DNA of 64,000 nt from Paracoccaceae bacterium. Its GTDB lineage: Bacteria > Pseudomonadota > Alphaproteobacteria > Rhodobacterales > Rhodobacteraceae. The stretch is from the NCBI GenBank assembly GCA_902543185.1, contig CACBXB010000011.1:1-64000 (forward strand), written 5' to 3'. Under the pieces are notes generated by a model. The model saw only the letters and a list, made by a program, of their open reading frames with translations, was not told the origin of the DNA and ran no database searches. A program made the position numbers and the translations under genes. This document shows, in pieces, positions 1 to 6,097 of this stretch (its first letter is position 1; the number at the start of each line of letters is the position of its first letter).

Positions 1-1756
1 GGTGGCAACACCAGAATTTTTTACTAGAACGCAGGTAGGTTCACCAGAATTTTTTACTAGTAGAGAGGTAGCTGTACCCGAGTTTTTTACTAGAACGGAA
101 GCAGCTTCACCCGAGTTTTTTACTAGAATTGATGACTCATCAGCTTCGCCAGAATTTTTCACTAGATCTGCCGGTACTGTTTCTTACTCAAATTCTATAA
201 GTCATTATCAAAGACCTGTAATAACAGACTACGACCGGCAGGAAATTACTGGATATAGTCGAGAAGAAGTAGCTTTCTATACAAGAAATAAGCAATTGAG
301 GACCGCAGTTAATATTTCGGGTCAGGTTGAAAAATACATCGGCGAAACGCGGGTAACGAATAACCCAGATGGTTCTGTAATCAGAGCGCACGTGGGCTGG
401 GAGCGCGATAATCAAGTTTATGTAAATAACTGGAAGATGTACGATGATCGTGTCGAATTTGGTTCAACGTTTCAAGTTTTTGATACTGACGGATCTTATG
501 CATGGAACGGAGACGGGACGGGATATAATCCAGCAGACGTACCTTCGATAACTGTACCAACGCCAACGCTGGATCAAATGGCTAAGCCTAATTATGGTTC
601 GTTCACACGCTTAAATGGATCACCTGGTAATCCGGCTATTAAAAATAGAGATGATGCGGCAACTGTACCGGTAGTGCAAAGTGGTGGCGAGGATGTGCGA
701 GATTATGGCGATACTTTCTCTCTTGATACACCAGATGTGCCAATAGGCCTTGTATCGGATGATACTGTAACGGATCCTTTTTCTGGGGCAGCTATGGAGC
801 TATTTACCGGAAAATTAAAATTTGAGGATAGTGCAGCTTTTGGTATCTACCACGGTCCGGCCATTGTAAGCGAACAATTTTCTGCGGAGGCGGGCCAATT
901 TCTAAAACTTAACTACAGTGCTGCAGGAGATGTAGATGATTATCACGTCGCCGGTTATATTTATAAAGTAGACGCAGCTACTGGAGATCCTATCCTAGAT
1001 GAAAATGGTGATCCTAAAATTTTTATGGCCCTGAATGAGACTGGTACCGTTGAACTGAATGGTCGTGCATCAGTGGAAATTGAGGATAGTGGTGACTATA
1101 GATTTGTCTTTATCGTAGGAACTTTCGATAAAACTGGGGGATTAGCAGCTGGCGCTAGTATGAGAATAGACAATATTGTTGCAGAATTTCCATTTATAGC
1201 GGATGAGGAAACTATTGCTGCTCTTATAAAAGCGGTGAACTATTCTAATTCTGATATTGTTGAAAGCGAAACAAGTTCGATCACGTCATCTATAAGAAAT
1301 AATAATGATGATCGATTTTCAACGGATGACATAATTACCAACCTTGGAGAAGATGATCCTGAATCTTCCAGAAGTATAGCTGCAACACTGGTTTCAACTG
1401 TGGGTGACGAGGCTGCTGATAATGGTAATATAACTAAGATAAGTGAAGAAATTGACACTAGCATATTAACTTCAAAAATTGATCGGGTTCAGCAACTTCT
1501 TAATAAGGCGCGTGAGCAGGCGGGTTCGCAATACTCTGCTCTTGAGAGTTTGGTAATATCTACTACAGACCTAACGTCTGAGTACGAGACAAAATACAAC
1601 GAGGTTAGTCGTGTTGACTTTGCTTCGGAGACAGCTCTCTTAGCTAAAAAGCAAATATTAAAGGATACCGCTACCGCTGTTTTGGCTCAGGCTGGTGAGG
1701 GCCAGCAGCATCTCTTGAAGTTACTGAAAGACTCTCAAAAATTGCCGAAGTATTAA
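1..1756 (+). CDS. Large flagellin-like protein, 5' end outside the window
   Basis: The last ~90 residues match the conserved flagellin C-terminal (D0/D1) helix: a Lys/Arg-rich amphipathic segment with REQAGSQYSALES, then SRVDFASETALLAKKQIL and TAVLAQAGEGQQ. That domain packs against the N-terminal helix to polymerise the filament. In front of it lie about 490 residues of non-conserved surface sequence. They begin with a tandem 11-residue repeat built on PEFFTR, and near residues 275-395 a beta-rich module contains GTFDKTGG and a downstream IDNI. The gene is open at the left edge, so the true start, the N-terminal flagellin domain and more repeats are missing from view. It ends as a convergent neighbour of a small leftward gene. 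The flagellin assignment rests on the C terminus; a hook-associated protein (FlgL type) is the main alternative. Confidence 0.78.
   Translation, partial: VATPEFFTRTQVGSPEFFTSREVAVPEFFTRTEAASPEFFTRIDDSSASPEFFTRSAGTVSYSNSISHYQRPVITDYDRQEITGYSREEVAFYTRNKQLRTAVNISGQVEKYIGETRVTNNPDGSVIRAHVGWERDNQVYVNNWKMYDDRVEFGSTFQVFDTDGSYAWNGDGTGYNPADVPSITVPTPTLDQMAKPNYGSFTRLNGSPGNPAIKNRDDAATVPVVQSGGEDVRDYGDTFSLDTPDVPIGLVSDDTVTDPFSGAAMELFTGKLKFEDSAAFGIYHGPAIVSEQFSAEAGQFLKLNYSAAGDVDDYHVAGYIYKVDAATGDPILDENGDPKIFMALNETGTVELNGRASVEIEDSGDYRFVFIVGTFDKTGGLAAGASMRIDNIVAEFPFIADEETIAALIKAVNYSNSDIVESETSSITSSIRNNNDDRFSTDDIITNLGEDDPESSRSIAATLVSTVGDEAADNGNITKISEEIDTSILTSKIDRVQQLLNKAREQAGSQYSALESLVISTTDLTSEYETKYNEVSRVDFASETALLAKKQILKDTATAVLAQAGEGQQHLLKLLKDSQKLPKY
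11..166 (+). repeat. 33-bp in-frame tandem repeat encoding PEFFTR
   Basis: Five copies of a PEFFTR-type codon block start at 11, 44, 77, 110 and 149. The spacings are 33, 33, 33 and 39 bp, so the reading frame is kept and the last unit has two extra codons. Copy 2 reads PEFFTS. The array probably continues beyond the left edge. Variable residues between cores (for example TQVGS, TEAAS) keep an acidic/Ala/Ser character. Copies differ at synonymous positions (cca or ccc for Pro, gaa or gag for Glu), so they are not the product of a very recent duplication. Confidence 0.9.
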
Positions 1757-3629: not shown

Positions 3630-6035
3630 TTAGTGTTTAATTGTCTGGCTTTGCTTCTGTTCCTCGAGAGCTTTTGCAGCCGCTGCCTCTTCTGCAGCTT
3701 CGTCCCATTCGATTGGGCTTGGAGAATGAGTAAGTGCGATCTTCAAAACTTCGGAAACATTCTTGACGGCTATAATTTCTAGAGAAGATTTTACATTATC
3801 AGGAATGTCCACAAGGTCTTTTTCATTTTCCTCGGGAATAAGTACTGTTTTGATTCCGCCTCTGAGAGCGGCAAGTAACTTCTCTTTAAGCCCACCTATT
3901 GCTAGCGCGTTTCCTCGCAAAGTAACTTCTCCTGTCATCGCTAAATCTTTCCTCACAGGGATGCCGGTTAATACGGACACAATTGATGTTACCATTGCTA
4001 AACCGGCGCTTGGCCCATCTTTTGGTGTAGCTCCTTCTGGCACATGAACGTGAATATCAGTTTTGTCAAATTTGGGTGGCTTAATTCCAACTTCAGCGCT
4101 TATTGAGCGAACATACGAATTTGCTGCATCAATACTTTCCTTCATTACATCTCCCAGTTTACCAGTAGTCTTCATTCTGCCTTTACCTGGTAACTTAAGC
4201 GCTTCGATATGTAATAAATCACCGCCAACAGAAGTCCAAGCCAAACCTGTAACAACCCCTATTTGATCATCTTGTTCAGCTAAACCAAACCTAAATTTCT
4301 TAACACCAAGAAAGTCGCCAAGGTTATCCATAGTGACCTTGATGTCTTTATTTTCATTTTTAACGATCTTAGTAACAGATTTACGAGCTAATTTTGAAAT
4401 TTCGCGCTCCAAATTTCTTACACCCGCTTCTCTTGTATAGTAACGAACGATACCTGTTAAAGCACCATCAGTTAGCTCAAACTCTCCTTTTCTTAAGCCA
4501 TGGTTTTTTATGGCTTTATCGATTAAGTGCCTTTTAGCAATTTCAATTTTTTCGTCTTCTGTATAGCCCTCCAGCGGTATGATTTCCATTCTGTCTAATA
4601 GGGGGGCCGGCATGTTGTAGCTATTTGCCGTTGTAATAAACATTACATTAGAGAGATCGTACTCGACTTCCAAATAGTGATCCGTAAAAGTACTATTTTG
4701 TTCTGGATCGAGAACCTCAAGCATAGCACTAGCCGGATCTCCACGAAAATCCTGTCCCATTTTATCAATTTCATCCAATAAAATCAATGGGTTAGTTGTT
4801 TTTGCCTTTTTAAGTGCTTGAATAATTTTCCCAGGCATTGAGCCGATATATGTTCTTCTGTGTCCACGAATTTCGCTTTCGTCTCTGACACCTCCAAGAG
4901 AAATTCTTATAAATTCACGGCCAGTAGCTTTTGCTACTGACTTGCCAAGCGATGTTTTGCCCACACCTGGTGGGCCAACGAGGCACATTATTGGACCTTT
5001 CAATTTAGAGCTTCGTTTCTGAACGGCTAGGTATTCAATTATTCTTTCTTTAACTTTCTCTAAGCTGTAGTGATCTTTATCGAGAACTGTTTCGGCTTTA
5101 TATAGATCTTTCTTGACCCGTGATTTCGTTCCCCATGGAATAGAAAGCAGCCAATCTAAATAATTTCTGACCACGGTTGCTTCAGCGGACATTGGGCTCA
5201 TATTTTTAAGTTTTTTGAGTTCTGCGTCTGCTTTTTCGCGAGCTTCTTTCGTAAATTTGGTGTTATTTATACGCTCTTCAATCTCAGCAGCTTCATTTTG
5301 ACCATCCTCGCCATCTCCGAGCTCTTTTTGTATAGCTTTCATCTGTTCATTTAAATAATACTCTCTTTGGGTGCGTTCCATTTGCGATTTTACGCGTGTC
5401 TTAATTTTTTTCTCTACTTTTAAAACACCCATTTCCCCTTGCATTAGTGAAAAAACTTTTTCTAGTCTTTCACTTACTGAAAGCGTCTCCAACAGATCTT
5501 GCTTCTGCTCAATCTCTATTCCAAGATGACCAGAAACCAAATCCGATAATTTAGCCGGATCATTGGTACTGGCAATTGTTGTAATTGCTTCATCTGGGAT
5601 ATTTTTCTTTACTTTAGCATATCGATCAAACTCTTGGGATACTGTTTTCACAAGCACAATATTGGCCTTTTCGTCACCTAGCGTTTCATCAATTTTTTCG
5701 CATTTTGCCTCAAAAAATAATTCATTTTCTACAAAATCGGTTATCAAAACCCTTGTTTGTCCTTCGACCAAGACTTTCACTGTACCGTCTGGTAATTTTA
5801 GTAGTTGGAGGACATTTGCAAGAACACCTGTTTTAAATATACTATTTTCAGTTGGCTGATCTTCTGTGGGATCGACTTGACTTGACAACAAAATTTGTTC
5901 GTTGTCTTTCATCACTTCTTCCAGCGCTCTAACTGATTTTTCCCTACCTACAAATAGAGGAACAATCATGTGTGGAAAAACAACAATGTCTCTCAAGGGT
6001 AGGACGGGAAAGGTTGTATTTTTTTCATCTAGCAT
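3630..6035 (-). CDS. lon: ATP-dependent protease Lon
   Basis: Cytosolic AAA+ serine protease that unfolds and degrades misfolded and regulatory proteins. In order: the N-terminal LON substrate-binding domain (PVLPLRDIVVFPHM), a coiled-coil region, the AAA+ module with Walker A GPPGVGKT at about 354-361 and Walker B LILLDEIDKM, and the C-terminal protease domain with catalytic Ser676 in DGPSAG and Lys719 in GGLKEKLL. The length of 801 residues is normal. The ATG at 6035 is preferred to a TTG two codons upstream because GAGGA precedes it. The C terminus carries a short Ala/Glu-rich tail. Transcription is leftward toward tRNA-Val. Confidence 0.98.
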   Translation of the reverse strand: MLDEKNTTFPVLPLRDIVVFPHMIVPLFVGREKSVRALEEVMKDNEQILLSSQVDPTEDQPTENSIFKTGVLANVLQLLKLPDGTVKVLVEGQTRVLITDFVENELFFEAKCEKIDETLGDEKANIVLVKTVSQEFDRYAKVKKNIPDEAITTIASTNDPAKLSDLVSGHLGIEIEQKQDLLETLSVSERLEKVFSLMQGEMGVLKVEKKIKTRVKSQMERTQREYYLNEQMKAIQKELGDGEDGQNEAAEIEERINNTKFTKEAREKADAELKKLKNMSPMSAEATVVRNYLDWLLSIPWGTKSRVKKDLYKAETVLDKDHYSLEKVKERIIEYLAVQKRSSKLKGPIMCLVGPPGVGKTSLGKSVAKATGREFIRISLGGVRDESEIRGHRRTYIGSMPGKIIQALKKAKTTNPLILLDEIDKMGQDFRGDPASAMLEVLDPEQNSTFTDHYLEVEYDLSNVMFITTANSYNMPAPLLDRMEIIPLEGYTEDEKIEIAKRHLIDKAIKNHGLRKGEFELTDGALTGIVRYYTREAGVRNLEREISKLARKSVTKIVKNENKDIKVTMDNLGDFLGVKKFRFGLAEQDDQIGVVTGLAWTSVGGDLLHIEALKLPGKGRMKTTGKLGDVMKESIDAANSYVRSISAEVGIKPPKFDKTDIHVHVPEGATPKDGPSAGLAMVTSIVSVLTGIPVRKDLAMTGEVTLRGNALAIGGLKEKLLAALRGGIKTVLIPEENEKDLVDIPDNVKSSLEIIAVKNVSEVLKIALTHSPSPIEWDEAAEEAAAAKALEEQKQSQTIKH

Positions 6036-6097
6036 GCTCAATCCTCATCTTATAGTAGGTATTATAACTCGTTTAATTCTTTTTGTTTTACATTGTT

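Follow-up and report, generated by a model that had tools for sequence, protein, structure and literature searches.

The 64,000-nucleotide stretch of DNA analysed here (the window) comes from a marine bacterium of the Rhodobacteraceae and begins with what is probably the C-terminal half of a single flagellin gene. Complete, this gene would have about 1,600 codons, and its product would carry a CBM4-like outer domain with repeat arrays on one of its loops and would serve in surface display. The features concerned are the following:

2..1756, forward strand: open reading frame for the C-terminal 584 amino acids, plus stop codon, of the putative giant flagellin (PF00700)
11..166, forward strand: PEFFT[R/S] array, five units visible (residues 4, 15, 26, 37 and 50)
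197..292, forward strand: 8-residue array ISHYQRPV / ITDYDRQE / ITGYSREE / VAFYTRNK (residues 66-97)
428..1192, forward strand: C-side part of the putative CBM4-like beta-sandwich (residues 143-397; alignment, and model plus Foldseek search of a short relative)
1475..1726, forward strand: Flagellin_C, PF00700 (residues 492-575; profile match)
Contig C8 of the same assembly, locus L028:2293-5256: flagellin N half (PF00669; open frame running off the contig)

The frame at 2-1756 is open at the left edge, with no start inside that edge. Since position 1 is also the first base of contig C11 (64,433 bases), the gene has been cut by the assembly (G000), which comprises 2.02 Mb in 49 contigs and is rated 75% complete. 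The flagellin-like C terminus reported in an earlier note on this DNA was confirmed by a match to PF00700 above its cut-off (25.6 bits versus 23, E = 1.5e-5), and the PDB sequences matched by the window protein were solved flagellins (36 sequences with E ≤ 1). Downstream of the gene lies lon (window 3630-6041); flagellin ends adjoin lon also in G004:C1 (L066) and G008:C49 (L037).

A profile search of the contigs returned the sole Flagellin_N match of the assembly on contig C8, 2.5 kb from the contig end (PF00669, 60.4 bits, cut-off 26.6), so that the N-terminal flagellin domain to be looked for according to the earlier note does exist, on another contig, and would be that of the window gene if C8 and C11 make up one gene; the whole assembly holds one PF00669 and one PF00700 match. 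The C8 frame of 988 aa (970 aa counted from a MANIG start) runs off the contig without a C domain and ends in a 168-bp (56-aa) tandem array of 5.3 copies; both contigs, C8 and C11, end in array sequence. Their ends share no exact overlap and are bridged only via the sister genome AG-461-P07 (G003, completeness 73%), itself split elsewhere. In this genome, an orthologous N half of 675 aa, running to the contig end, is identical to that of G000 at 635 of 675 residues, and a C half of 897 aa consists, in this order and in one frame, of 5.4 copies of the 168-bp unit, six PEFFTR-type units and the C half proper, which is identical to that of the window at 556 of 584 residues. When aligned to the sister, C8 reaches base 793 and the window starts from base 940, and provided that copy numbers agree, approximately 146 bp (about 49 codons) are missing between them. 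The variant order of the five 56-aa units was the same in both genomes as far as visible (DP, DR, VR and DP at a comparable place). From this sequence comparison we infer the join of C8 and C11 via the sister genome, and the missing N half of the window gene is very probably the end of contig C8. Given this join, the full protein would measure about 1,603 aa, estimated from the 970 and 584 residues seen plus the gap taken from the sister, and would exceed the 1,000 aa above which a flagellin counts as giant. The earlier proposal of a giant flagellin was supported, with a Flagellin_N half in existence and both halves bridged through the sister genome. At three loci, each in a different genome, the giant or array-bearing flagellin has an open frame of 515-543 aa upstream of it (L028:371-1915, L057:441-1985 and L058:2259-3887). 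In G014, a repetitive frame of at least 299 aa with NTSGSYNTAVG-type units (L058:4103-4999), two genes from the flagellin, had no Pfam match at E 0.01.

With regard to the repeats, TRF detected a period of 33 (3.6 copies, score 149) at 9-128 of the window, and successive PEFFT[R/S] motifs are spaced by three steps of 11 residues and one of 13. None of 10,000 shuffles attained the period-11 self-identity of the first 57 residues (21/46), whichever period between 5 and 19 was considered. These results corroborated the regular 33-bp, 11-residue PEFFTR repeat described previously, and its dissimilarity to ordinary flagellin variable sequence also held, as a search of 337 genomes of the class with the first 57 residues returned nothing but the genome of origin. 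When the whole 584 residues were compared with 101 relatives, 16 matched, and the PEFFTR array was covered in G003 only. The expectation that this array might be long was not sustained, because the sister species has only six units, the first of them degenerate (PAFFTS); the bulk of the giant protein comes from the 56-aa array and other insert sequence rather than from PEFFTR. The 8-aa array, which the earlier note does not mention, showed 12 identities at period 8 within residues 58-120; the 56-aa array lies upstream, outside the sequence available to that note.

The arrays are arranged in the order 56-aa units, PEFFTR units and 8-aa units, and their content differs greatly among members of the genus. 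In the relative G014:C69, ISHYERDN-type units occupy the place of the 8-aa array and GQQQAGDRAV units are present too, while the units at the end of G014:C1, roughly 40 aa long, are relatives of the 56-aa repeats. The 56-aa repeats resemble the FlgD Ig-like domain (PF13860) by a summed weak match (E = 3.3e-11 for the L067 array), but no single stretch passed on its own. The structure model of the arrays had a mean pLDDT of 45.1, with array blocks mostly at 24-50, a confidence too low to read. A phage origin of the arrays was considered and rejected: a 383-aa array stretch had no match in 50,697 phage records, no relative was found in viral contigs, and PHROGs gave only a weak match, in the N half (E = 0.002).

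The insertion point was located by comparison with shorter flagellins of the genus. In those of 734-752 aa (G001, G008 and G014), the NGDFxxG-NW segment carries no insertion, and it is undivided too in the flagellin of G003:C18, whose C end is cut. Against the G001 short form, the alignment of the N half stops at residue 384 and that of the window half begins at residue 385; against that of G014, the N-half alignment ends at 364 and the window-half alignment starts at 361. The insert is therefore placed at one point of the sandwich and amounts to about 864 aa (673 + 49 + 142); the first sandwich strand motif (NGDF) belongs to the N half and is separated by the insert from the part in the window. 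In G004, a short form is split between two frames that overlap, one with its N part and one with its C part, which reflects either a frameshift or an assembly error. Flagellin_N was found in 11/16 genus genomes and Flagellin_C likewise in 11/16, several members having more than one flagellin. In five genomes, the FlgK-like frame before FlgL is very long (1,443-1,460 aa; G001:C7, G002:C6, G004:C37, G007:C7 and G008:C19).

A model of the insert-free G001 flagellin had a mean pLDDT of 46, with residues ~381-570 mostly at 66-90 and a dip near 421-432. When this model was compared with the PDB by Foldseek, 68 entries matched with E no higher than 0.001 (best E 9.9e-6). The list is headed by a hyaluronan-binding module, CBM4 modules and meprin/MAM structures, and the spirochaete sheath protein FlaA1 has rank 21. 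We assign these matches to the sandwich because it is the only confident part of the model. The CBM4 entries superposed weakly (target TM 0.39-0.52, large rmsd), on a model that comes from a relative without the insert. Judged from this model, the outer domain is most likely a CBM4-like beta-sandwich, a sugar-binding-type fold; CBM4-type modules are its nearest solved folds, but the likeness of the window sandwich is one of fold, without a family-level sequence match. Indeed, no carbohydrate-binding family of Pfam reached its cut-off in the window, the C8 half or the relatives, nor did Pfam hold a family for the module. The sole CBM60 match, on an adhesin, had an E of 0.032 and fell short of its cut-off, as did the NCBIfam choice-of-anchor J match on one surface protein (E = 9e-4). 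Searching PDB sequences with a profile of the module returned nothing credible. A fold search of a viral library yielded tail proteins with poor superposition, on which we did not lean.

Relatives of the module were found at 22 loci in named genomes. Seven of these loci belong to single-cell genomes of Rhodobacteraceae, five in number, and one to a contig with the label Crocinitomicaceae; the other 14 lie elsewhere, and their parts seen are large surface proteins lacking flagellin ends. The contig labelled Crocinitomicaceae (L070, PAME01000010.1) starts with the end of such a flagellin, and its MAG label may be due to mis-binning. In giant surface proteins with VCBS or cadherin-like repeats (L075, L076, L079, L080, L082, L084 and L086), presumably of the LEPR type, the sandwich is 32-48% identical to that of the window (alignment A4), but, unlike the window protein, these have no flagellin ends in the parts seen. 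Among 385 genomes of the class, five matched including our own, the others being G441, G363, G436 and G338. The module occurs in two flagellins of G441 (519 and 951 aa) and in one of G363 (1,618 aa), which has a tail of cadherin-like repeats behind the module; all three carry PF00669 and PF00700, and the match in G436 is an adhesin-like protein. The module is undivided in the 519-aa flagellin (L125:1375-2931), and in the 951-aa one (L124:2715-5567, reverse strand) the repeat units apparently occupy a different loop. Beside the 1,618-aa flagellin lies a 735-aa frame (L123:7011-9215, reverse strand) with a matrixin/serralysin peptidase (PF00413, PF08548), a HEIGHAVGLSH motif, RTX repeats and Flagellin_C, and with no flagellin N domain seen in the frame; to judge from its domains, it is possibly a proteolytic flagellin whose peptidase belongs to a class other than that of flagellinolysin. 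Four of 398 genomes of the phylum matched, including our own, and two of these matches begin with a LEPR-type motif. Nine viral contigs (L130-L138) encode relatives of 27-38% identity, in one case (L132) as a stand-alone protein of 217 aa. The binding surface suggested in the earlier note receives weak support from the CBM4-like fold and from the sequence kinship with giant surface proteins.

Selection was estimated by the method of Nei-Gojobori between G000 and G003 in eight segments, the 56-aa array lying outside these segments. The three N-half segments gave dN/dS values of 0.108, 0.132 and 0.078, the last covering the first 360 aa of the insert, and the five C-half segments gave 0.095 (PEFFTR), 0.04, 0.036, 0.13 and 0.041, the D0/D1 segments being those at 0.108 and 0.041. 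The core and the tested insert parts are, with values of 0.036-0.132, under purifying selection. Near the start site, a 45-bp element, found by eye and then measured, ends 15 bases before the start codon. It is identical at 44/45 positions in G003, 37 in G014:C1 and 35 in the ordinary 468-aa flagellin of G001, compared with shuffle maxima of 25-26. For G002_C40 (26 identities against a shuffle maximum of 27) and for two flagellins whose module is undivided (22 and 21), the match stayed within the range of shuffled sequences. Regular expressions for sigma-54 and sigma-28 had no match upstream of nine flagellins.

Several other explanations were weighed against this one. The separate contigs, their lack of an exact overlap and the occurrence of more than one flagellin in several genus members would agree with two different flagellin genes, neither of which need be giant. 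We regard this as very unlikely, as the assembly has one N and one C domain, both contigs end in array, the sister C half bears the 56-aa units of the N contig in the same order, and the N half by itself, counted from the MANIG start, already makes a 970-aa open frame that lacks a C domain. There is scarcely any chance that the protein is the hook-filament junction protein (FlgL) and not a flagellin: although PF00669 matches FlgL too and TIGR02550 gave a weak match (25.9 bits, cut-off 127), flagellin models score higher, and a D0/D1 tree of 17 rows set the giant protein with the genus flagellins, apart from two FlgL-like proteins (presumably FlgL, to judge from their position), with 100/100 support, its place among the genus flagellins not being settled by this tree. 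Idle filler under no selection, or a phase-variable antigenic array, would suit arrays that are tandem, of an expandable kind and of greatly differing content within the genus; both the low dN/dS in PEFFTR and the tested insert part and the unit order conserved in two species speak against it, and we consider it unlikely.

It is also rather improbable that the protein is a flagellin derivative, located on the surface or secreted, that has given up filament formation, flagellar genes having been lost in the species and its sister. This would be in line with FHIPEP and Flg_bbr_C, found in 7/16 and 9/16 genus genomes, respectively, and in neither G000 (75% complete) nor G003 (73% complete), where no export or hook gene was thus seen. 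However, neither genome is complete and both lack EF-G as well, the D0/D1 segments are under purifying selection, and the start-site element is common to the ordinary flagellin of a cluster-bearing genome. In G001, the flagellar cluster is followed by fusA and ribosomal protein genes. EF-G was found in G001 and G014 but not in G000, G003, G002 or G006; because EF-G is essential, part of the fusA region must be missing from the assemblies. An unsampled flagellar cluster fits the missing EF-G without being proven by it, and two genomes limit the argument: G002 has a flagellar cluster, with another flank, yet no EF-G, and G006 had no EF-G match although it is rated 96% complete.

Giant flagellins and flagellins with foreign domains are already known (PMC6248924, PMC5595980). 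As outlined in PMC6248924, those of Oceanospirillales (Bermanella, Oleibacter) exceed 1,000 aa and contain one or two DE regions plus a DX insert, the DE-type inserts matching only flagellins. The protein described here would be like them in its length of >1,000 aa, its flagellin ends, its large central repeat-bearing insert and its marine host, and would differ from that description in its CBM4-like sandwich, its surface-protein kin and its loop-borne short tandem arrays. In the variable regions of flagellins with foreign domains, such as flagellinolysin, 61 domains have been counted, and the ten commonest in Table 1 of that report include no carbohydrate-binding module (PMC5595980). As in flagellinolysin, a domain of other origin lies inside the variable region; unlike in that enzymatic flagellin, neither half contains HExxH or, by Pfam, a peptidase. 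Both halves are free of cysteine. In the openly accessible literature, we found no prior report of an array-bearing giant flagellin with a surface-protein module, or of PEFFTR.

In the single giant flagellin that we favour, the N- and C-terminal helices would pack as D0/D1 and polymerise, and the outer domain would be a CBM4-like beta-sandwich of a kind that recurs in giant surface proteins. One sandwich loop, next to the first strand, would carry about 860 aa of 56-aa hairpin-like, PEFFTR and 8-aa units, and these arrays would stand out from the filament, making its surface larger or decorating it. We infer the filament, its thickness and any binding, and the filament may mix the giant protein with shorter flagellins. 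Its role would most likely be filament surface display, glycan adhesion or recognition being a first guess. More tentatively, a surface-adhesion module that giant surface proteins and viral-contig proteins also possess might have become the standard outer domain of the genus flagellins, with one loop loading unrelated arrays to yield a glycan-binding, adhesive propeller, a design reached in similar form in other Alphaproteobacteria (G441, G363).

This case would also show that giant flagellin genes break short-read assemblies and are therefore probably under-counted. The flagellum of this marine organism may bear an extensive surface layer. If this reading is right, the flagella of open-ocean bacteria would gain a definable outer domain with surface-protein kin, and the occurrence of undivided and array-bearing modules in one genus would offer a test of what giant flagellins are for, be it thickness, adhesion, or defence against phages or grazers.
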